From contig NZ_CP144125.1 of the NCBI RefSeq assembly GCF_036429475.1, positions 3,551,521-3,615,520 of the forward strand: 64,000 nucleotides of DNA, written 5' to 3'. The notes beneath the pieces are model-generated. The model did not search any database, was not told the DNA's origin, and saw only the letters and a program-made list of their open reading frames with translations. A program made the translations under genes and the position numbers. The stretch comes from Halalkalicoccus sp. CGA53. Lineage in GTDB: Archaea; Halobacteriota; Halobacteria; Halobacteriales; Halalkalicoccaceae. This document shows positions 3,632 to 48,892 of this stretch, one piece after another (position 1 is the stretch's first letter; each line of letters starts with the position of its first letter).

Positions 3632-5275
3632 ATGAACGTCAACGAGGCCGTCATCGACCGCCTGCGCGAGAACGGGATCGACACCGTCTTCGGCATCCCC
3701 GGGAAGCAGTCGCTCCCGCTGAACGAGACGATCGGCGAGCGCGAGGACGTCCGGTTCGTGATGGCGCGTCACGAGACGGCCGTCTCGCACCAGGCGTGGG
3801 GCTACGCCGAGACGAGCGGGCGGATGGCCGCGACCGTCGTCATCCCCGGTCCAGGCGACATGAACGCGATGAACGGGCTGAAGAACGCGCTCAACGACTG
3901 CACGCCGTTGCTCCACGTCGCGATCGAGACCGAACCCGAGATCAGGGGCGGCGACGGCATCCACGAGACGCCGCCCGATACCTACGACAACGTCGTGAAG
4001 GAGAATATAACCGTAACAACCGCAGAGAGCACGATAGCCGAGCTCCAGCGGGCGATCGACGTCGCGCGTACCCCTCCGACGGGACCGGTACGGATCGGCA
4101 TCCCGAAGGACTTCCTCAAACTGGACGTCCCGCTCGCGGAGCCGGAGTCGACCGTCGAGGACCGGGTCGCGGAGCCCCCGCACGACGCCGTCGAGCGGGC
4201 AGCCGAACTGCTCGCGGGGGCGGAACGGCCGGTGATCGTCGCGGGCGGCGGCGTGCGGGCGTCGGGCGCGACCGACGAACTCGTGAGGGTCGCCGAGCGT
4301 CTCGACGCGCCCGTCGTCGTCACGTACAAGGGGAAGGGGGCGTTCCCGGACGACCACGACCTCGCGGCGAGCGCGCTCTGTGGCGGGGCAGGGACAGAAA
4401 TAAAGGGGCTGGTCGCGGAGTCGGACGCCGCGCTCGGCGTCGGCACCGACTTCGACGCGGTGACGATGCAGAACTGGTCGATCGAGGTCCCCGAGAGGCT
4501 CGTCCACGTCACGCTCGACGCCTCGGACGTCGGGACCGGCTACCAGCCAGAAGTCGGGATCGTCGCCGACGCGAAGGAGACGCTCTCGGCGCTCGACGGC
4601 GCGCTCGCCGCGCGGACGGTCGAGAGCCAGGACGGTATCGAACGGGCACGGGAGACCCGCGAGGGGATCGAGGAGCGTCTCGGGGAGCTCCTCTCGGTGA
4701 CCGACGCACCGCTAACGTCGGTGAGCGCGCTGCGTGCGCTTCGCGAGGCGATCCCGCGCGAGGCGGCGGTCGGCGTCGACGCCGGCGGGTTCAGGCTCTG
4801 GACGCTCGTCGCCTTCGACGCGTACGACCCCCGGACCTACGTCAACCCCGGGTCGTGGGCGACGATGGGCTCGGGACTGCCCTCGGCGATCGGCGCGAAA
4901 CTCGCCGAACCCGAGCGTCCCGCGGTGGCACTCACCGGCGACGGCGGACTGTTGATGTGTCTGCACGAACTCCACACGCTCGTCGACGAGGGGATCGACG
5001 TCACTGTCGTCGTGCTGAACAACAGCGACTACGCGATCATCAGCGAGGAGGCCGGCCGGAGCTACCGGATGGACCCGGGAGAGTACGGCTGGGAGGAGTC
5101 GCCGGTCTCGTACACCACCGTCGCCGAAGGGTTGGGCCTCGACACCGTCCGAGCCGAAACCACTGACGCGCTCCAAGAGACCGTCGCCGACGCCATCGAG
5201 AGCGACGGGCCGACGCTCGTCGAGGTCCCGACCGACCCGTACGAGCCGCAAGCCAGCGTCTGGATGAACGACTAG
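3632..5275 (+). CDS. Thiamine diphosphate-dependent enzyme, acetolactate synthase-like
   Basis: A 547-residue protein with the three-domain layout of the acetolactate synthase/benzoylformate decarboxylase superfamily. The N-terminal pyrimidine-binding domain has the catalytic Glu in MARHETAVSHQ (Glu48). A central domain follows, then a C-terminal pyrophosphate-binding domain with GDGG at about residue 436 followed after about 25 residues by LNNSDYA, the metal-binding motif. It probably decarboxylates or ligates a 2-oxo acid. It overlaps the stop of the convergent HpaI-type aldolase by four bases, and that aldolase yields pyruvate-type products, which fits a shared pathway (inference). Confidence 0.85.
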   Translation: MNVNEAVIDRLRENGIDTVFGIPGKQSLPLNETIGEREDVRFVMARHETAVSHQAWGYAETSGRMAATVVIPGPGDMNAMNGLKNALNDCTPLLHVAIETEPEIRGGDGIHETPPDTYDNVVKENITVTTAESTIAELQRAIDVARTPPTGPVRIGIPKDFLKLDVPLAEPESTVEDRVAEPPHDAVERAAELLAGAERPVIVAGGGVRASGATDELVRVAERLDAPVVVTYKGKGAFPDDHDLAASALCGGAGTEIKGLVAESDAALGVGTDFDAVTMQNWSIEVPERLVHVTLDASDVGTGYQPEVGIVADAKETLSALDGALAARTVESQDGIERARETREGIEERLGELLSVTDAPLTSVSALRALREAIPREAAVGVDAGGFRLWTLVAFDAYDPRTYVNPGSWATMGSGLPSAIGAKLAEPERPAVALTGDGGLLMCLHELHTLVDEGIDVTVVVLNNSDYAIISEEAGRSYRMDPGEYGWEESPVSYTTVAEGLGLDTVRAETTDALQETVADAIESDGPTLVEVPTDPYEPQASVWMND

Positions 5276-6060
5276 CCCCGCTCCGACCGGCTCCGCTCGT
5301 ACGTCTCGCGGATCCGCTCGCCGCCCTCGATCAGCGTCGTCGTGTCCTTGCCCGCGATCAGGTAGTCGAAGCCGCGCTCGACCGCGGCCGGAACGTCCTC
5401 GGCTCTGACCGTGAGCGTCCCGACCGGGACGTCCTCCCCGTGGCTCGCCTCGAGCACCCGTTCGATCGCTTCCGCGAGTTCGGGGGAGTCCCACTCGGCG
5501 AAGACCCCGAGCGAGGCCGAGAGGTCCGCCGGCCCGACGAACAGCGAGTCGATCCCCTCCGTCGCCGCGATCTCGCCCGCGTTCTCGACGCCGGTCGGCG
5601 TCTCGATCTGTGCGATCCGGAGCAGGTCGTCGTGATCGCGCTCGACGTACTCGACGAACGACTGGCCGTGACCCGACGCGCGGCCGCCCGCGACGCCCCG
5701 GACCCCGTCGGGCGGGTACCTCGTCGCCTCGACGAACGCTCTCGCGTCCTCGGCCGTGTCGACCATGGGGACCATCAGGCCGTCCACGCCGATATCCAGT
5801 ACTCGTTTGATCCGCACGGGGTCGTTCCACGCCGGCCGGACGACCACCGACAGGTCGCCGGGTGCGGCCTCCGCCGCCCGGACGAGCCCCGCGACCGTCT
5901 CGAGGCTCATCGTCGAGTGCTCCGTGTCGACGGCGACGAACGCGAAGCCGGCGCGCGCGGCCGCCTCGACGACCGTCGGGTGACCGATCGAGATCCACGA
6001 GCCGAGCGCGCCGTCAGCGACCCGGTCGGCCAGACCGCGCGCCCCGGACCCCTCAGTCAT
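5272..6060 (-). CDS. HpcH/HpaI family aldolase
   Basis: A 262-residue class II pyruvate aldolase, full length for the family. It shows SWISIGHPTVVEAAARAG near the N-terminus, AVDTEHSTMSLETV, the RIKRVLDIGVDGLMVPMV strand, IAQIETPTGVEN with the metal-binding Glu, and VGPADLSASLG. The enzyme should cleave 2-keto-4-hydroxy acids to pyruvate or oxaloacetate plus an aldehyde. The reading frame could extend upstream to 6114, but the added residues (WWRAM and before) do not look conserved, so the ATG at 6060 is preferred. Its stop overlaps that of the convergent ThDP enzyme. Confidence 0.88.
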   Translation of the reverse strand: MTEGSGARGLADRVADGALGSWISIGHPTVVEAAARAGFAFVAVDTEHSTMSLETVAGLVRAAEAAPGDLSVVVRPAWNDPVRIKRVLDIGVDGLMVPMVDTAEDARAFVEATRYPPDGVRGVAGGRASGHGQSFVEYVERDHDDLLRIAQIETPTGVENAGEIAATEGIDSLFVGPADLSASLGVFAEWDSPELAEAIERVLEASHGEDVPVGTLTVRAEDVPAAVERGFDYLIAGKDTTTLIEGGERIRETYERSRSERG

Positions 6061-6790: not shown

Positions 6791-6871
6791 ACGCTGTGCC
6801 ATGCGTGATGGTCTCGGAACGCGGGAAAAACGGTTCCCCTCTTTCGGGCGACGGTGTTCGGATACTACCGA

Positions 6872-6909
6872 GAGGAATCGGCTCTCGTGGTGGTCGCAAT
6901 CGATTCCTC
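6872..6909. repeat. Inverted repeat upstream of the LLM-class gene
   Basis: GAGGAATCG (6872-6880) is repeated as its exact reverse complement at 6901-6909. Weaker matching continues outward (CTACC.. against ..GGGAGTAG), giving an imperfect stem of about 17 bp around a 20-base loop. It lies about 80 bases before the ATG of the flavin-dependent oxidoreductase. It could be an operator or the end of the rearrangement that truncated the neighbouring pseudogene. Confidence 0.4.
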
Positions 6910-6989
6910 GGGAGTAGCGTGTGATCCGAACGCGGCCGGAGGGGAACCCCGAACACAACAGCTACGGCCCCGCCCGAGAGACAGGTGGC

Positions 6990-7964
6990 ATGCCATCACA
7001 CGGCTACGTGCTGCCGACCCGTGGCGTCGTCCTCTCCTCGGAGGACTCGCTCGAACAGGCCGCGAGGGTGCGGTCGGAGGTGATCGACCTCGCCCGGCGG
7101 GCCGAGGCGCTCGGCTTCGACGGGGTCTGGGCGGGCGACAGCGTGCTCGCGAAGCCCCGTCTCGAACCGCTCTCGACGCTCTCTGCGGTCGCGACGGCGA
7201 CGGAGGCGGTCACGCTCGGGACGTCGGTCTACCTCCCCCAGCTGCGCCACCCGGTCCACGTCGCCCACCAGTCGGCGACGATCGACCTCGTGAGCGGCGG
7301 TCGCCTCGCACTCGGTCTCGGCGTCGGGGTCGGGCCGGACGTCGAGGCCGAACACGACCAGCTCGGCCTCCCCTACGGACGGCGCGGGGCGCTGCTCGAC
7401 GAGGGTCTCGAGGTGATCGCCGGGCTCTGGAGCGGCGATCGCGTCACGGTCGACGGCGAGTTCTTCGAGCTGGAGGACGCGGAGATCGGCGTCCAGCCGT
7501 GCGGTGGACCCCCGCCGATCTACGTCGCGTCCGCGACGTTCGACCCCAGGGAGGGGTTCCCGCGCCCGATCCGAGAGCGGATCGCGAAACACGGGAACGG
7601 CTGGCTCCCGATCGGCCAGTCGACCGAGATGTACGCGGCGGGGATCGACCGAGCACGCGACCTCGTCGCCGAGGCGGGCCGCGGCGGGGAGCCGTTCGAC
7701 GCCGCCTACTACCAGGACGTGGTGATCGCGGAGACCGAGGCGGCGGCGATCGAGGAGGCGCGCACGTTCCTCGACCGGTACTACCCCGCGTGGGGCGAGC
7801 TGAGCGACGAGGACGTCCGACGGCGCGGGGCGTTCGGGCCACCCTCCGTCGTCGCGGAGCATCTCGAACGCTACGCGGAGGCGGGCGTCGAGACGTTCGT
7901 CACGCGGTTCACCGCGCGCGACCAGCGCGAACAGCTGCGCCGGTTCGCCTCCCTCGTCCAGTGA
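6990..7964 (+). CDS. LLM-class flavin/F420-dependent oxidoreductase
   Basis: A 324-residue bacterial-luciferase-fold protein. Supporting segments are the RRAEALGFDGVWAGDS strand-helix near residue 35, LGTSVYLPQLRHPVHVAHQ with a cis-peptide-type strand, and LVSGGRLALGLGVGV, followed by the C-terminal helix pairs. In archaea this family commonly uses coenzyme F420 (family knowledge). The frame is open back to 6921, but MPSHGYVLPTRG at 6990 is the natural beginning and follows a purine-rich GACAGG. It stands alone between a pseudogene and a GNAT gene. Substrate unknown. Confidence 0.85.
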   Translation: MPSHGYVLPTRGVVLSSEDSLEQAARVRSEVIDLARRAEALGFDGVWAGDSVLAKPRLEPLSTLSAVATATEAVTLGTSVYLPQLRHPVHVAHQSATIDLVSGGRLALGLGVGVGPDVEAEHDQLGLPYGRRGALLDEGLEVIAGLWSGDRVTVDGEFFELEDAEIGVQPCGGPPPIYVASATFDPREGFPRPIRERIAKHGNGWLPIGQSTEMYAAGIDRARDLVAEAGRGGEPFDAAYYQDVVIAETEAAAIEEARTFLDRYYPAWGELSDEDVRRRGAFGPPSVVAEHLERYAEAGVETFVTRFTARDQREQLRRFASLVQ

Positions 7965-8001
7965 TCGGCGTTTCGGGGGTCGCTCCCCCGATACCGAGGC
8001 G

Positions 8002-8430
8002 TCACGCGAGCTCGTAGACGAACGAGAAGCAGTACTTCTCGTAGCCGTTTCGCTCGTAGAACCGGTGGGCCTCCTCGCGCCAGAGGCCGGACTCGAGCTC
8101 GACCGCCTCGCACTCGCGTTCTGTGGCCCACTCGTTGACGAACGAGAGCAGCGCGCTCCCGTGGCCCTTCGATCGCTCCGTTTCGGTCACCACCAGATCG
8201 TAGACGTAGGCGTGGCGGCCGAGGTAGAAGTTCGTCCCGACGCGGACGCCCGCTGCAGCGATCGGCTCGTCGTCGACGAAGCCCCCGAAGAGGTGGTACC
8301 CCTCCTCACGCATCGCCGCGTAGAGTTCCCGGTACTCCTCTCTCTCCAGATCGCGGAGTTCGGAGACGATCGGGTAGAGCGCGTCGACCACCGACTCACT
8401 TCTCGCCTCCCGGATCTCGAGTTCGTCCAT
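8002..8430 (-). CDS. GNAT family N-acetyltransferase
   Basis: A 142-residue protein of typical GNAT size. Beta strand 4 plus the acetyl-CoA pyrophosphate loop reads YVYDLVVTETERSKGHGSAL, where the loop is close to the R/Q-x-x-G-x-G/A consensus (RSKGHG). The C-terminal HRFYERNGYEKYCF segment is the classic GNAT end. The first residues (MDELEIREAR) also fit the family. The longer open frame upstream of 8430 is low-complexity and rejected. It is convergent with the LLM-class gene. Acceptor unknown. Confidence 0.9.
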   Translation of the reverse strand: MDELEIREARSESVVDALYPIVSELRDLEREEYRELYAAMREEGYHLFGGFVDDEPIAAAGVRVGTNFYLGRHAYVYDLVVTETERSKGHGSALLSFVNEWATERECEAVELESGLWREEAHRFYERNGYEKYCFSFVYELA

Positions 8431-8628
8431 GGGTCGAGATCGGCACCCGCGGGCATCAGCGGTCCGGTCGGTGCGTCGTGGGGAGCGTCGTAGAACCTCG
8501 TCGTTCGTCGACGACGAACCGAACGACACCGGTGATGTGTACGCCCCGGCGGGACGCTCGGCTACGGTGATCCCTCTCAGCACCGTGCGAGACGGCAGGC
8601 TTATTCGGCCCGGGCGAACATCGAGTCC

Positions 8629-9804
8629 ATGCGAGAGGCCTACCTCGTCGGCGCGGGCCAGTCCGACTTCGGCGCGTTCCCGGACGAGAGCTACCGGTCG
8701 CTGTTCCGCACGGCGTTCGAGGCGGCGATGGAGAGCGTCCCGAGGGGAATGGAGAGCGAGGCGATAGACGAGGCGACCGTCGGCACGCTCGGCGTCGGCG
8801 GCCGCCAGCTCGGCCTCCCGGGGCCGGCGGTCACCGAACACGTCGGTCTCGGCGGGGTACCGTGTACGAGGGTCGAGAACGCCTGTGCCGCGAGCGGGTT
8901 CGCGCTCCGGAGCGCGGTGCAGGCGATCCGCTCGGGGATGGCGGACGTGGTCCTCGCGGGCGGGTTCGAGGTGATGAGCGACACGAGCGCCGACGCGACG
9001 AAGTACTGGCTCGGGGTTTCCGGAGAAACGGAGTGGGAGCGGCTCTCGGGGACGACCTTCTCCGGGACGTACGCGCAGATGGCGAGCGCACACATGGAGC
9101 GCTACGGCACCACCGGAGAACAGCTCTCGCGGGTCGCGGTGAAGAACCACGCGAACGGGGCGAAGAACCCGCACGCACAGCTCGGCTTCGAGTGTACGCT
9201 CGAACAGGCCGAGTCCGCACCTGTCGTGGCCGACCCGCTGACCCTCTATCACTGCTGTCCGACCTCGGACGGGGCGGCGTGTGCGCTCGTCGCCAGCGAG
9301 GACGTCGTCGCCGAGTACACGGACGAGCCGATCCGGATCGCCGGCGTCGGCGCGGGCAGCGACCGTGTCGGGCTCTTCCAGCGCGAGAGCTATACGCGGG
9401 TTCCCGCGAGCGAGCGCGCCGCCGACGCCGCATACGAGATGGCGGGGATCGCGCCGAGTGACGTCGACTTCGCGGAGGTCCACGACTGCTTCGCCATCGC
9501 CGAACTGCTCGCCTACGAGGACCTCGGCTTCTGCGAGCGGGGGGAGGCCGGCTCGTTGATCGAGTCGGGAGCAACGGAGCGGGAGGGAGAGCTCCCGGTC
9601 AACACGTCCGGGGGGCTGAAGTCGAAGGGCCACCCGATCGGTGCGACCGGGGCGGGCCAGGTGGTCGAGGCGTTCAAACAGCTCTCCGGCGAGGCGGGCG
9701 AGCGACAGGTAGAGGACGCGCGGCGGGGGCTGACGCACAACGTCGGCGGGAGCGGCGGGGCGGCGGTCGTCCACGTCTTCGAGCGCGAGGAGGTTCGGGC
9801 ATGA
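8629..9804 (+). CDS. Thiolase / acetyl-CoA C-acyltransferase family protein
   Basis: A 391-residue thiolase of the SCP-x-like branch. The nucleophile Cys86 sits in VENACAASGFALRSA. The EVHDCFAIAELLAYEDLGF region and SKGHPIGATGAGQVVEA carry the expected second-half residues, and HNVGGSGGAAVVHVF closes the fold. It probably makes or cleaves a 3-oxoacyl-CoA. It overlaps the next gene by ATGA. That gene is a synthase-like protein fused to a DUF35-type zinc ribbon, the usual partner of this thiolase branch, so the two products probably form one complex. Confidence 0.88.
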   Translation: MREAYLVGAGQSDFGAFPDESYRSLFRTAFEAAMESVPRGMESEAIDEATVGTLGVGGRQLGLPGPAVTEHVGLGGVPCTRVENACAASGFALRSAVQAIRSGMADVVLAGGFEVMSDTSADATKYWLGVSGETEWERLSGTTFSGTYAQMASAHMERYGTTGEQLSRVAVKNHANGAKNPHAQLGFECTLEQAESAPVVADPLTLYHCCPTSDGAACALVASEDVVAEYTDEPIRIAGVGAGSDRVGLFQRESYTRVPASERAADAAYEMAGIAPSDVDFAEVHDCFAIAELLAYEDLGFCERGEAGSLIESGATEREGELPVNTSGGLKSKGHPIGATGAGQVVEAFKQLSGEAGERQVEDARRGLTHNVGGSGGAAVVHVFEREEVRA

Positions 9805-43512: not shown

Positions 43513-44325
43513 ATGGCAGATCGAGCAGAACCGACGACCGGTGAGAGCGACGACGGAGAGCACCCGTATCGCGTCGCGGAGATGACCTGGCAGGAGATCG
43601 AGACGGCGACCGAACGGACCGCGACGCTTCTGGTACCGGTTGGCGCCACGGAGCAACACGGCCACCACCTCCCGCTCGGCGTCGACGTCTTCATGCCCGA
43701 GGCGATCGGCGAGCGCGTCGCCCGAGCGGCTCCCGCGCTGCTCGCCCCACCGGTCTGGTACGGCGTGAGCCCGCACCACACGTTCAAGCCGGGGACGTTC
43801 ACCGTCTCGAGCGAGACGTTCCGGCGCTACGTCACCGAGCTCTGTGCCTCGACGGCCGACTGGGGTATCGAGCACGTCCTCCTGCTCAACGGCCACTACC
43901 TCGCACAGGACCCCGAACTGGAGATCGCCGTCCGCGAGCTTCGCGAGGGCGGTATCGAGGCGTTTCACCTCCCGCTCGTCGAGCTCTTCTCGGACGTGGC
44001 CGCCGAGATCCGGAGCGGCGAGACGTCGTTTCACGCCTCGGAGTTCGAGACGAGCATCATGCTCGCGCTCTATCCCGAACTGGTCCGGATGGACCGCGCC
44101 GAGCGCGTCGACGTACCTACCGAATCGCTCCCGCTCACCGACTACGACGCGCTCGGCGAGAACCGAGTGGGGTGGTCGCTCACCGCGAGCGAGATGGACG
44201 AGCTGACGCCGACCGGGAACCTCGGCGATCCGACCGTGGCGACCGCCGAGACGGGCGAGCGGCTCGTCGACGCCGCGGTCTCGGAGGTCGTTTCGCTGGT
44301 GGAGGCGCTCGAGACGAGGGGGTGA
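43513..44325 (+). CDS. Creatininase family amidohydrolase-like protein
   Basis: A 270-residue protein with most creatininase-fold metal motifs: PVGATEQHGHHLPLGVD (Glu, His, Asp) near residue 50, and FHASEFETSIMLAL with the second Glu. The usual NGHGGN loop is altered to LLNGHYLAQDPE. Members hydrolyse small cyclic amides or formamides (mycofactocin MftE and archaeal ArfB belong here), so a cofactor-pathway role is possible. The ATG at 43513 (MADRAEPTTGES) is favoured over longer frames. Confidence 0.85.
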   Translation: MADRAEPTTGESDDGEHPYRVAEMTWQEIETATERTATLLVPVGATEQHGHHLPLGVDVFMPEAIGERVARAAPALLAPPVWYGVSPHHTFKPGTFTVSSETFRRYVTELCASTADWGIEHVLLLNGHYLAQDPELEIAVRELREGGIEAFHLPLVELFSDVAAEIRSGETSFHASEFETSIMLALYPELVRMDRAERVDVPTESLPLTDYDALGENRVGWSLTASEMDELTPTGNLGDPTVATAETGERLVDAAVSEVVSLVEALETRG

Positions 44326-44462
44326 TCCGTCGTCGGGCCGGAGATCGGTCTCGGGGGCCCTGGGCCGGTGGAGAGTGGGGCGACCGAACGCGATAGCAGA
44401 GATTGTAGAAATCGACCGATCCGGACGCTACTCGGTAAAAAAAAGAGCGTCGGACCGACGGG

Positions 44463-44472
44463 ATTATTTATA
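44463..44472 (+). promoter_or_regulatory. TATA box of the unknown-function cluster
   Basis: ATTATTTATA, in an A/T-rich leader unusual for this region, lies 33-42 bases before the ATG at 44505. It is the only strong promoter-like site seen before the five-gene set, whose internal gaps are all 31 bases or less, so one transcript is likely. Confidence 0.55.
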
Positions 44473-44504
44473 ATGAACGGTAGTGATATAATTGTCGAGA
44501 GCCA

Positions 44505-45023
44505 ATGTCAGTCGGGCAAGAGCTGTTGGACGTGCCGTTCCCGGAGATGGTGGCGAGCATGGGACAGGGCATCGCCGACGCACAGAACCAGTTGGACATG
44601 AACTCCGTAAAGGTTGCGAAGGTGCTGGCCGAGACGGAGATCGAGGTTGTGCCGGCGATCACGCGGACGATTACGGCCGACGGGGAGGTCGAGTACAGTT
44701 CGGCCGATGCGATCGACGTCTCGCTGATACAGGCGGGGATGTTCCCGACGTTCTACCAGTTCAGCGAGGCGACGATCGAGGTGGAGATGGACATCAAGAC
44801 GACGACCGAGCGGGAGACGAGCATCGACGTCAGCGCCGGGGCGAAGTTCGGCTACGGACTGTGGAGCGCGCGCGTCGACATCGACGTCAGCCACAATCGG
44901 AAGTTCGGCAAGGAGGTCCACGGGACGAGCAAACTGAAGACCACGATGGTGCCGGTTCCGGAGCCGCCGTACCTGTTCCCGGAGGTCCTGACGGTGGACA
45001 ACCGCCCGAGCCCCGATGAGTGA
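44505..45023 (+). CDS. Unknown-function cluster protein 1 (DUF2589-like paralogue 1)
   Basis: A 172-residue protein. The N-terminal amphipathic helical region (PFPEMVASMGQGIADAQNQL at 11-30) is followed by VVPAITRTITADGEVEY and a beta-rich half beginning MFPTFYQFSEATIEVEMDIK. It continues through an aromatic-rich FGYGLWSARVDIDVSHNRKF to MVPVPEPPYLFPEVL. It resembles DUF2589-type proteins (by eye, not by search). The next two genes encode divergent paralogues with the same order of elements. No signal peptide, membrane segment or catalytic motif. First gene after a strong TATA box. Confidence 0.75.
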   Translation: MSVGQELLDVPFPEMVASMGQGIADAQNQLDMNSVKVAKVLAETEIEVVPAITRTITADGEVEYSSADAIDVSLIQAGMFPTFYQFSEATIEVEMDIKTTTERETSIDVSAGAKFGYGLWSARVDIDVSHNRKFGKEVHGTSKLKTTMVPVPEPPYLFPEVLTVDNRPSPDE

Positions 45024-45045
45024 TCGGACCACCTCCCGGTGACCC

Positions 45046-45615
45046 ATGCCGATCAGAGTCACCGATCTACAGCGGCGTGCGCTCCCCCTCGAGGGCCGGT
45101 CGACCCGAGAGAAGGAGGTGTCGTTCGCGGACCTGGTGTATCTCACCGCCGAGGGGGTTGCTGAGGCACAGACGTAACTCGACCTCTCGACGGCGGAGGT
45201 GCTACGGGTGCTCGCCGAGCAGCGGGTGGACGTCGTCCCGCGGGTCACCCGGACGCTCGACGAGGACGGACGGGTGCGAACGGAAGCGGCGGAGCCGGAG
45301 AGCCGATCGCTGCTCGAGCTCGGGTTCACCCCGACGCGCTACCAGTTCGAGGAGGCGACGATCGACCTCGAGTTCGACGTACGGGTGACCGAGTCGGAGG
45401 AGTCGACGCGCGACGCGGAGGGGCGAGAGCTCCTGCTCCGCGCGGAGACGTACGAGGTCTCGGAACACCGGAAGTTCGCCCGCGAGATGAGCCAGAACGC
45501 CTCGCTCAGCGCCCGATTGGTCTCGGTTCCGCTCCCCGTTGAGCTCCTGCCGACCGAGGAGCGGGTGGAGGACCCGGCGACAGACGTCGACGTGCCCGAG
45601 GAGCCGGACGAATGA
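45046..45615 (+). pseudogene. Unknown-function cluster protein 2 (paralogue 2), interrupted by one in-frame TAA
   Basis: From the ATG at 45046 the frame reads 43 codons, then TAA at 45175-45177, then continues open to 45615. Across the stop the protein lines up with paralogue 1: AEGVAEAQT-stop-LDLSTAEVLRVLAE against GIADAQNQLDMNSVKVAKVLAE, so a Gln codon (CAA to TAA) is the simplest ancestor. The rest is well kept: LLELGFTPTRYQFEEATIDL and LVSVPLPVELLPTEE. It is a fresh pseudogene, a readthrough gene, a sequencing error, or is restarted at an internal GTG such as 45199, losing the helical part. Confidence 0.7.
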
Positions 45616-45646
45616 TGGGACCCGTGGCGGACGGGGGGCCGTAGCC

Positions 45647-46042
45647 GTGTCCGACCGGGCGGTCGATCGGTGGGTCTCGCGACCGATGAAAGAGGTGATA
45701 CGCGAGGTCGCCCGCTCGGTCGCGGAGAGCCAGGAGGAGCTCGACCGGCGGTCGATGGCCGTCCAGCGCGAGATCGAACGGGCGGTCGAGCGCGGCGACC
45801 TCCCGTACGAGGTGGACGCGACCTGGCTCCAGTTCTCCGAGGTAGACGTCGACCTGCAGATCGCCGTCTCGCTGGAGGGGAGAGAGGAGACACGCGACGG
45901 CGAGCTCCGGGCGATCCGTCCGGGTATTACGGTCGCACCGATCGGGCCGCGATACGCCTCGGCGTACGACGCGAGCGCCGAAGTGACGAGCGACGTCAGA
46001 CTGAAGATCGTCCAGGTGCCGCCCGAGCGTCGACGGTCATGA
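45647..46042 (+). CDS. Unknown-function cluster protein 3 (paralogue 3)
   Basis: A 131-residue protein from GTG at 45647. VSDRAVDRWVSRPMKEVIRE and VAESQEELDRRSMAVQREIE match the helical N-terminus of paralogue 1, and ATWLQFSEVDVDLQIAVSLE matches its FYQFSEATIEVEM strand pair. It is shorter, lacking the VVPAITRT section. An ATG at 45686 would remove the first conserved residues. It overlaps the next gene by ATGA, so their products are made together. Confidence 0.65.
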   Translation: MSDRAVDRWVSRPMKEVIREVARSVAESQEELDRRSMAVQREIERAVERGDLPYEVDATWLQFSEVDVDLQIAVSLEGREETRDGELRAIRPGITVAPIGPRYASAYDASAEVTSDVRLKIVQVPPERRRS

Positions 46043-46998
46043 GCTCACGCGAGTCCGAACGGGAGCTCGGTGTCTTCGTGCTCGAGGAACTCCCCCGCGT
46101 CGACGCCTCGAAGCTCGAGCCCGTCGAGCGCGCGGCGATCGAGCGGGCGGTTCACGACCGCGAGGAGCTACTGGTCGACCTCCAGACGCGACTCGTCGAG
46201 CTCCGGGGCGAACGCAACGCCTTCGAGCGACGGATCGAAGCCCTCGAGGGGGAGCGAACGGAACTCCGAGAGCGCCTCGAGGCGATCGAGGAACAGCGGC
46301 CGAGACTCGTTCCGACGGAGCTGTTCTCCGAGTTCACGACCGCCGTCGGTGGCGTTCGCGAGGAACTGGAGGGGGCAAGCACCGAGTACACGGTGGGCGA
46401 CGTCGAGTTCGACCTGAAAGCGAACGTCATCACCTCCGACGATGGAATCCGCTTCCAGCTCCCCTCGCTCGGGGAGACGGTGTCGGCGGGAACGCTCAGC
46501 GACGTCCGGTTCACGGTGCGTCGACGCAGCCCGATGGAGACCGCGGCACTCCGCGAGGTGCCCGAAGTCCGGTACCTCCCGCGAGAGGGTGCGATCGAGC
46601 GACTGGAGGGTGCTGGGTTCACCGTCGGAGCCGTGGACACGGAGACGACGGACGACGAGGTCCCCGACACCGTCGTCGCGCAGTTCCCCTCGCCGTACTC
46701 GGTGGTCCCACCGGAGGTGGAGCCGGTGGTCGACCTCGTCATCTCCGAGCGGGCGGCGAGAGGCGAGGAGGAGCGAGCCATCGAGGAGACCGAACTCGAC
46801 GCTCCGAAGCGTATCGACGTCAGGGAGATCCCCGGTATCGGACGGGTTCGCGCGGGACACCTCGAGGAGGCGGGGATCACCCGGCTCGATCAGTTCGCCG
46901 CGAGCAACCCGGATGAGATGGCAGACGTCCTCGAGGTCACACCCCACCGTGCCGAGCGGTGGATCGAGTACGCCCGCACGCTCCTCTCGAAGGGGTGA
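46039..46998 (+). CDS. Coiled-coil / PASTA-like / helix-hairpin-helix protein
   Basis: A 319-residue cytoplasmic protein. Residues 30-95 are a charged coiled coil (VELRGERNAFERRIEALEGE). About 100-165 form a beta-rich domain (YTVGDVEFDLKANVI) that faintly recalls trypsin-co-occurring domains. About 175-235 look like one PASTA repeat (AIERLEGAGFTVGAVDTETT, ending VEPVVDLVIS). The final 60 residues are a helix-hairpin-helix (VREIPGIGRVRAGHLEEAGI) of the sort that binds DNA or mediates assembly. Combined with three paralogous partners upstream, a scaffold role is plausible but unproven. Confidence 0.75.
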   Translation: MSSRESERELGVFVLEELPRVDASKLEPVERAAIERAVHDREELLVDLQTRLVELRGERNAFERRIEALEGERTELRERLEAIEEQRPRLVPTELFSEFTTAVGGVREELEGASTEYTVGDVEFDLKANVITSDDGIRFQLPSLGETVSAGTLSDVRFTVRRRSPMETAALREVPEVRYLPREGAIERLEGAGFTVGAVDTETTDDEVPDTVVAQFPSPYSVVPPEVEPVVDLVISERAARGEEERAIEETELDAPKRIDVREIPGIGRVRAGHLEEAGITRLDQFAASNPDEMADVLEVTPHRAERWIEYARTLLSKG

Positions 46999-47010
46999 CC
47001 GGGCGTGGAT

Positions 47011-47310
47011 ATGGCGAGACGATTCGGGGCTCGTGTCGACGTGACGCGACCGGATCCGACGACCGAGGGTGCGTTCCTCGTCCGGAGCCAAGGGTCCGTC
47101 GACCACGACGAATTCATGGGGGCGGTACTGACGTTCCTCGGGACGGCCGATCGACTCGTCGTTCATCACCGCTCCGGGATCGCGGTCGTACGGCTCAGCT
47201 ACGGTCAGGCACGCCGGCTCCGTGGACACCCGATGGTTTCGCTCGTCGGGAGCGTCGGGTTCGATCCCGACCGGTTCGCCGCGGTGACCGGGATCGCCGT
47301 CGACGAGTGA
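47011..47310 (+). CDS. Stand-alone I9-inhibitor-like protein
   Basis: A 99-residue protein. GAFLVRSQGSVDHDEFMGAV, LVVHHRSGIAVVRLSYGQAR and HPMVSLVGSVGFDP follow the order of the ferredoxin-like I9 prodomain of subtilisins (strand, helix, GI/FA strand, helix, hPxVxxV strand). No protease domain follows. Stand-alone I9-like proteins act as protease inhibitors or folding helpers. It begins 12 bases after the HhH gene; an in-frame GTG at 47005 is an alternative start. Assignment rests on the pattern only. Confidence 0.6.
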   Translation: MARRFGARVDVTRPDPTTEGAFLVRSQGSVDHDEFMGAVLTFLGTADRLVVHHRSGIAVVRLSYGQARRLRGHPMVSLVGSVGFDPDRFAAVTGIAVDE

Positions 47311-47353
47311 GATCGACCACACCGTTATGTCCGTGCCGGGAGCGGGTGTTCAC

Positions 47354-48892
47354 ATGAGCACGGAACGAGTGTTCCTCGCGGAGTTCTCCCACGAGACCAA
47401 CACGTTCGCGGCGACGCCGACCGGGCGTCGCGATTTCCAGAACAGGGGCGAGTTCTTCGGGAGGGAGGTACTCTCCGAGTTCGAGGGGACGAACTCGACG
47501 ATCGGCGGGGCCTGCGAGGTGGCCGAGGCGGAGGGCGTCGACCTGCTCCCGTCGGTGAGCGCCGAGGCGACGCCCGGGGGGGTCGTCTCGGCGGACGCCT
47601 ACGGGTTCTACACCGGACGGATCCTCGACGGCCTCCGGGAAGCGAGTGACGTCGACGGCGTCTTCCTCTCGCTGCACGGTGCGATGGTCCAGGAGGGCGG
47701 CGTCGACGGCGAGGGACCGCTGCTCTCGGCGGTCCGGGAGGTCGTCGGCGAGTCGGTCCCGGTCGTCCTCACGCACGATCTCCACGGGAACGTCACCGAC
47801 GAGACGGTGGCGAACGTCGACGCGCTCGTCGCCTACGAGACCTATCCCCACACCGACATGGGGGAGACCGGCCGCCGTGCGATGGAGCTGCTGGTCGCCG
47901 CGATACGCGGCGAGATCGATCCCGTCACCCGGATCGAACGCCCGCCGCTGCTACCGTTCGTCCCGAAAGAGAACACCCGCGAGGGGCCGATGGCCGAGTT
48001 GATGGCGGAGGCGAGGAGGCTCGAGGCGAACGAGGGGGTCCTCGAGACGAACGTCCTCCCGGGGTTCCACCAAGCGGACGTGCCGGGAATCGGGTTCTCG
48101 ACGCCCGTCGTCACCGACGGCGATCCGGCGCTCGCGCGCGAGACGGCGCGCTCGCTCGCCGAGACCGCCTGGTCGATGCGCGAGTCGTTCGTCGGGGAGT
48201 ACCCGACCCCGGAGGAGGCGGTGCGGGAGGCGAGGCGACTGCAGCGCGACGGCGCGAGCGAGTCGGGCCCGGTCGTGCTGGCCGACGTCGGCGACAATCC
48301 CGGCGCCGGCGGGGCGGCCGACGGTACCGTCCTCCTCCGGGAACTGCTCGAACAGGGCGTCGCGAACGCGGGACTCGCGCTCGTCAGCGATCCGGAGGCG
48401 GTCGAGCGGGCGATCGAGGCGGGCATCGGATCGCGGCCCACCATCACTCTCGGCGGGAAGACCGACGACCGTCACGGCGAACCGATCGAGGTCGAGGGGT
48501 ACGTCGCGGCGATCACCGATGGCGAGTTTCGGAACACCGGTCCGATGGCGACGGGAGTTCGGACGAACCTCGGACGGACGGTCAGGCTCCGGATCGGCGA
48601 CGGTGGAGACGCCACGGTCGAGGTGATCGTCACCGAGAACCGGGTCCAGCCGTACGACGCGGAGATCTGGCGACACGTCGGGGTCCGACCCGAGGGTCTC
48701 GGGGTGCTCGTCGTCAAGAGCACGAACCACTACCGCGCCTCGTACGAGCCGCTCGCGAGCGAGGTGATCACGGTGAACAGCCCCGGCCTGGGGGCGATGG
48801 ACGCCCGTCTGTTCGAGTACGAGAACCTCGACCGCGAGCTCTACCCGATCGACGACCTCCCCGCCGGGGCGTATCCCGACTGGGAGCGGTAG
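47354..48892 (+). CDS. M81 family metallopeptidase (MlrC-like)
   Basis: A 512-residue protein. The first half shows RVFLAEFSHETNTFA, VFLSLHGAMVQEGG, VLTHDLHGNVT and YETYPHTDMGETG, the zinc-site pattern of M81 peptidases related to microcystinase C. The second half carries VVLADVGDNPGAGGAADGT and KSTNHYRASYEPLA, also family typical. It likely acts on small peptides or amide compounds taken up by the cell. It follows the I9-like gene by 43 bases, but functional linkage is not shown. Confidence 0.9.
   Translation: MSTERVFLAEFSHETNTFAATPTGRRDFQNRGEFFGREVLSEFEGTNSTIGGACEVAEAEGVDLLPSVSAEATPGGVVSADAYGFYTGRILDGLREASDVDGVFLSLHGAMVQEGGVDGEGPLLSAVREVVGESVPVVLTHDLHGNVTDETVANVDALVAYETYPHTDMGETGRRAMELLVAAIRGEIDPVTRIERPPLLPFVPKENTREGPMAELMAEARRLEANEGVLETNVLPGFHQADVPGIGFSTPVVTDGDPALARETARSLAETAWSMRESFVGEYPTPEEAVREARRLQRDGASESGPVVLADVGDNPGAGGAADGTVLLRELLEQGVANAGLALVSDPEAVERAIEAGIGSRPTITLGGKTDDRHGEPIEVEGYVAAITDGEFRNTGPMATGVRTNLGRTVRLRIGDGGDATVEVIVTENRVQPYDAEIWRHVGVRPEGLGVLVVKSTNHYRASYEPLASEVITVNSPGLGAMDARLFEYENLDRELYPIDDLPAGAYPDWER

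Follow-up and report, generated by a model that had tools for sequence, protein, structure and literature searches.

The five genes described here, p1 to p5, lie on the plus strand of a window of 64,000 nucleotides (the whole stretch of Halalkalicoccus sp. CGA53 DNA that was analyzed) and are spaced by +22, +31, -4, and +6 bases (Table 1). Their coordinates and spacings, put forward in an earlier note on this DNA, were confirmed, as was the strong TATA box ahead of the cluster: the hexamer TTTATA at 44467 is the only copy on the plus strand of the 64-kb window. An AT-rich element is also found upstream of p1 in the sister species and in other haloarchaea. Judged from the sequence, TTTATA is the probable single promoter of the five genes, which are probably co-transcribed, and the transcript is probably nearly leaderless. 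All five genes are under purifying selection relative to the sister species (dN/dS, 0.13 to 0.35), and this, together with their recurrence across phyla, indicates that the set is more than chance. The flanking creatininase and M81 (MlrC) genes were considered as parts of the system and rejected, since they adjoin the cassette in this genus only and since G001, a third species of the genus, has both of them with no cassette in between.

Table 1. Features of the five-gene cassette and its borders (window positions) and of related operons (positions within each locus)
Feature	Position	Strand	Description
Creatininase-family amidohydrolase gene	43522-44325		Flanks cassette
Block missing from congener G001	44328..47314	.	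G001 has an empty site here, its creatininase and MlrC genes adjoining
TATA box TTTATA	44467..44472	+	38 bases upstream of p1 ATG
p1	44505-45023	+	172 aa; DUF2589-superfamily subunit (by profile comparison)
p2 frame	45046-45615	+	189 codons; p1 paralogue, stop-interrupted
In-frame TAA in p2	45175-45177	+	At lysine of conserved AQTKLD motif; sister species has AAA
p3	45647-46042	+	131 aa; shortest of the three paralogues, with homology to Trypco2/DUF2589-like core (by profile comparison)
p4	46039-46998	+	319 aa; coiled coil, p3-like domain, PASTA, helix-hairpin-helix
p5	47005-47310	+	101 aa; stand-alone I9-like (subtilisin propeptide) predicted fold, no attached protease
M81 (MlrC-like) metallopeptidase gene	47348-48892		Flanks cassette
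Haloarchaeal DUF2589 operons	L125 4773-7249; L126 4983-7894; L127 4887-7306		

While the first description of the cluster had its coordinates and genes right, it overlooked the in-frame stop in p2. The sister species has a lysine codon (AAA) at this position, so the TAA arises by a single base; either a nonsense mutation occurred recently or the base was misread in sequencing. As it stands, the stop leaves protein 2 broken or shortened in Halalkalicoccus sp. CGA53. The next in-frame start, and the sole useful restart, is the GTG at 45199, which would yield 138 aa at the cost of the conserved N-terminal helix. The remainder of p2 shows purifying selection against the sister species (dN/dS, 0.13). 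A second case of decay occurs in the isolate genome of Halobaculum litoreum (L075 7977-8547), where p1 is split across two frames. The search for p3 drew a blank in Thiomicrorhabdus. Given the broken p2 here, the split p1 there, and some variants without p2 or p3, the full set is not always needed.

Proteins 1 to 3 had been read as tandem paralogues, and profile-profile comparison agrees, with probabilities of 100 for p1/p2, 98 to 99 for p1/p3, and 97 to 99 for p2/p3, whereas reversed decoys scored no higher than 0.2. By this measure the three are homologous members of one family. None of p1, p2, p3, and p5 has a Pfam or NCBIfam match of weight, and neither p1 nor p5 matched PDB sequences by profile at an E value of 10. 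The p1 protein is the cassette's most conserved member, with identities of approximately 60 to 66% to many bacterial homologues. Its predicted structure, a weak model (pLDDT, 65.5), places an amphipathic helix at residues 12 to 43 ahead of two long strands; a structure search with this model gave no match (maximum Z, 3.4; all Foldseek rows at E >1, which is noise). Across p1 to p5, no segment reaches a mean hydropathy of 1.6 over 19 residues, and no membrane segment or ordinary signal peptide is evident.

The suspected kinship of these proteins with DUF2589 and Trypco domains is likewise borne out at the profile level. A DUF2589 profile built from 23 DUF2589-type sequences of haloarchaea and bacteria aligns (hhalign) with the p1/p2 profile at a probability of 93% over 161 columns, that is, full length, against at most 2% for the reversed decoy. 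At the Pfam gathering cut-off for DUF2589 (PF11655), p1 to p3 of the window have no match, the best of 42 p1 homologues reaching 0.0056, and the organism's own genome has no DUF2589 match. Pfam Trypco2 (PF19631) is matched by 3 of 32 p3 homologues (best, 8.9e-6) and weakly by six p1 homologues; the window p3 has no match. On the strength of these comparisons, p1 to p3 are a distant branch of the DUF2589/Trypco2 group, a kinship of superfamily and not Pfam membership. DUF2589-related genes of Archaeoglobus fulgidus (AF0414 to AF0417) are increased during lactate growth (PMC3949148). Trypco2 has been termed an adapter of trypsin-type conflict systems (PMC7159879, PMC10907252) and is also found in VMAP/MoxR-vWA ternary conflict systems (PMC7159879). 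The cassette may be related to such systems through its p3 homologues and, weakly, its p1 homologues, but it has several paralogues instead of one, and no trypsin motif is present in the approximately 60 loci read.

A parallel is found in haloarchaeal DUF2589 operons (Table 1), which comprise four genes: two DUF2589 paralogues in tandem, a helix+beta protein, which in L126 and L127 has helix-hairpin-helix repeats, and a protein of 103 to 110 aa. Bacterial DUF2589 operons have a loosely similar layout. Shared with the cassette are the tandem helix+beta paralogues, the third helix+beta protein with or without helix-hairpin-helix, and the small last protein. In contrast, p1 to p3 fall below the Pfam cut-off or are unmatched, the DUF2589 operons have no PASTA/coiled-coil p4, and their small fourth protein (approximately 105 aa) does not match p5. 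The likeness suggests that a common logic of paired helix+beta subunits, a nucleic-acid-type tail, and a small partner has persisted even as its components drifted apart, and the haloarchaeal operon appears to be a sister system to the window cassette. Near bacterial DUF2589 operons, we also observed an astacin-like metallopeptidase (L147 4045-5037) and DUF922 and DUF2927 proteins (L148 5255-5779 and 7993-8808).

For p4, the proposed union of a coiled coil, a PASTA repeat, and a helix-hairpin-helix holds. The N terminus is coiled-coil-like, residues 173 to 236 match PASTA (PF03793; 2.9e-7, 30.8 bits versus a Pfam cut-off of 23.2), and residues 261 to 313 match HHH_5 (PF14520; 1.3e-7, 32.4 bits versus a cut-off of 27). 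The middle domain (approximately residues 92 to 175) compares moderately with p3 (profile probability, 74%; decoy, 0.04) and probably belongs with the p1-p3 family. Although p4 thus has one domain above cut-off from each of these two Pfam families, it differs from PASTA/HhH proteins in lacking a kinase or membrane anchor. Both the length of its coiled coil and its tail domains vary by lineage: the bacterial homologues examined stop at or just past the core domain, without PASTA/HhH tails, and other homologues carry extra PASTA or other beta repeats as tails. By eye, an acidobacterial homologue (L062 9589-11202) has long C-terminal beta-repeats of surface-protein type, another exchangeable tail. 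In Cryomorphaceae, a Bacteroidota version of the cassette (L077 335-2128 and 5501-7382) has PASTA domains on both its p4-like and p3-like proteins, together with a 597-aa p1-like protein that contains an internal OmpA-family domain (3.3e-11) and has no evident signal peptide.

The last protein, p5, had been described as I9-like with no protease attached, and its AlphaFold2 model agrees with this, showing a beta-alpha-beta-beta-alpha-beta order at a pLDDT of 85.6. Its best structural matches are mostly subtilisin propeptides (VIA Z, 7 to 8.6; Foldseek probability, 0.99); the matches include pro-subtilisin E (62 residues at an rmsd of 1.9; VIA Z, 8.6) and POIA1 (VIA Z, 8.2). The predicted fold is I9-like, and since other ferredoxin-like folds score nearly as high against the model, the comparison speaks to fold and not to function. 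The stand-alone inhibitors of the I9/POIA1 type share this predicted fold, but p5 has no Pfam I9 match, PDB profile match, protease partner, or evident export signal. Even at an E value of 0.5, Pfam I9 matched none of 31 p5 homologues.

The five genes travel together well beyond this genome, as was evident from a neighborhood survey, a check envisaged in the earlier note. Among 391 Halobacteria genomes, p1 is present in 26 and p3 in the identical 26, while p5 occurs in 19 of these and in none of the others. The seven genomes without a p5 match hold divergent variants; in the three that were read (L131 to L133), p3 and p4 are found together with a variant p1 (p1'), and next to p4 two or three of them have a short frame resembling p5, recognized weakly (E values of 3e-3 to 9e-3) or by eye. 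Homologues of the window p4 that match beyond the helix-hairpin-helix region are found in five other genomes, and the remaining genes adjoin in each, p2 being truncated by a contig end in one. A p1 search of a one-genome-per-species collection returned 43 loci, of which 28 have the complete set of five genes and another two are cut off at a contig edge. The archaeal loci belong to haloarchaea and Methanocalculus and the bacterial ones to Pseudomonadota, Gemmatimonadota, Cyanobacteriota, Chloroflexota, Thermomicrobiota, Actinomycetota, Acidobacteriota, Thermodesulfobacteriota, Campylobacterota, and Bacteroidota, where single phylum assignments may be wrong because several of the genomes are MAGs. 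The profile alignments were partly built from loci that were later scored; independent support for linkage comes from archaeal-only p5 profiles, which match bacterial p5 at many loci (E, 1e-3 to 1e-9), and from a bacteria-only p3 profile, which matches archaeal p3 (3e-5). The set is thus a genuine unit, complete in itself. Apparently it is an undescribed one: the mostly open-access literature that was searched yielded no description of the five-gene set. A different arrangement is seen at L070 7583-11654 and L074 (Xenophilus), where two p1 genes enclose an unassigned 468-aa protein and are followed by p3 and p4.

The order of the genes differs between lineages. The window, Halorubrum, and Natronomonas have the order 1-2-3-4-5, other haloarchaea (e.g., L031, L064, and L130) have 3-4-5-1-2, and most bacteria have 5-1-2-3-4, with 1-5-2-3-4 in two bacterial loci. 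The three main orders are rotations of one cyclic order, which is not proof of a circular intermediate, as one swap of two blocks also yields a rotation. In G001 (contig C211; L152), the creatininase and M81 genes are joined directly, with identities to the window flanks of 110/128 on one side and 92/96 on the other; the surplus of the window, 2,987 bases (2.99 kb), holds just the promoter and the five genes. The empty site may also be compatible with loss in G001. A Sphaerotilus plasmid carries just the five genes, each annotated as hypothetical, between two sugar-metabolism genes, one of gluconolactonase type and the other ilvD. In the p1 tree, the bacterial phyla are intermixed and the haloarchaea form one moderately supported group. 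The best reading of these sequence comparisons is that the cassette is horizontally mobile and accessory.

Because the set stays whole in lineages as far apart as haloarchaea, cyanobacteria, and proteobacteria, moves between phyla as one block, and contains no recognizable enzyme or membrane protein, its genes must act together. We lean toward the view that this mobile accessory cassette encodes a soluble heteromeric scaffold of DUF2589-like subunits arranged on the coiled-coil protein p4, with p5 capping or regulating it. Proteins 1 to 3 would be soluble cytoplasmic subunits, each with a long amphipathic helix ahead of its beta core, and their co-assembly into a heteromeric scaffold, also proposed in the earlier note, is plausible. 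In such a scaffold, p4 may join the subunits by means of both the coiled coil and the p3-like domain that it carries itself, so that the helices of p1 to p3 would pack along or beside the coiled coil and the beta cores would form the body. The lineage-specific tail of p4, here PASTA and helix-hairpin-helix, might be an exchangeable ligand-facing end, and p5 probably caps or regulates the assembly by edge-strand docking, as I9 propeptides do on proteases. Since Trypco2 has been called an adapter of conflict systems, an adapter or sensor role is the most reasonable guess, at low confidence; by this analogy, our best guess would be a scaffold acting as adapter or sensor in the response to stress or in defense, while nothing in the neighborhoods read points to defense. 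Taken further, and held only tentatively, the cassette might represent an undescribed cross-domain mobile assembly of four helix+beta subunits and an I9-fold cap, inherited as a block in rotated order and forming a large particle or filament in the cytoplasm whose binding tip could be exchanged.

Other explanations have to be weighed against this scaffold. The patchy, mobile, and dispensable distribution across phyla, the empty site in G001, and the kinship of Trypco2 with conflict-system adapters (PMC7159879, PMC10907252) would all suit an anti-phage or programmed-death module, in which the scaffold would be sensor and effector at once, p4 would sense DNA or a ligand through its helix-hairpin-helix and PASTA domains, and assembly would be lethal or blocking. 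We regard this as unlikely, given that p1 to p5 have no credible PADLOC match (none at all for p1, p2, p3, and p5, and only coiled-coil/PASTA-type matches at E values of 0.01 or worse for p4), that no enzymatic or toxin domain is found among them, and that the flanks read consist of metabolic genes and not defense islands. Still less probable is a phage-tail-like, capsid-like, or vesicle-like particle in which p1/p2 would build the repeating shell or tube and p4 would be a rod whose tip binds. Such a particle would accommodate both the exceptional conservation of p1, as seen in repeating shells, and the lineage-dependent coiled-coil length and tails of p4, but p1 has no match in IMG/VR or in 50,697 phage records, matches to PHROG are weak, and the set contains no ATPase, sheath, or portal gene.

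The earlier note had suggested that p5 guards or delivers a protease, and a subtilase inhibitor or chaperone in a cassette that stores or delivers a protease would indeed fit its predicted I9-like fold. The adjacency of Trypco2 domains to trypsin-like peptidases elsewhere (PMC7159879) and the astacin-like peptidase or DUF922/DUF2927 genes near the bacterial DUF2589 operons sampled (L147 and L148) point the same way. Against it, a motif scan that covered the signatures of subtilisin, trypsin, astacin, and S41 peptidases in 876 kb of sequence from approximately 60 related loci detected no subtilisin (GTSMA-type) or trypsin (GDSGGP-type) motif, so that the subtilase expected to co-occur with p5 did not appear, and the one peptidase-like gene near a p1 locus was astacin-type, in one MAG. 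Haloarchaeal subtilases, moreover, are secreted, yet p5 has no evident export signal, and in Halobacteria it is confined to genomes with other cassette genes. Hence, p5 seems to be one of the parts of the cassette rather than the guard of an unseen subtilase, and we consider the protease explanation very doubtful. The MAG in question, a Salinarchaeum (L034), has its astacin/matrixin-type peptidase (4689-5771) approximately 4.4 kb upstream of the cassette, with an 893-aa protein without a Pfam match (6867-9548) in between.

In conclusion, the gene set is real, conserved, and mobile, and the superfamilies from which its parts come are known but unexplained. The five small soluble proteins are co-expressible from one plasmid, and Halorubrum offers strains in which the cassette is naturally present or absent. 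Two uncharacterized Pfam families, DUF2589 and Trypco2, and a stand-alone I9 fold are tied together in one system.
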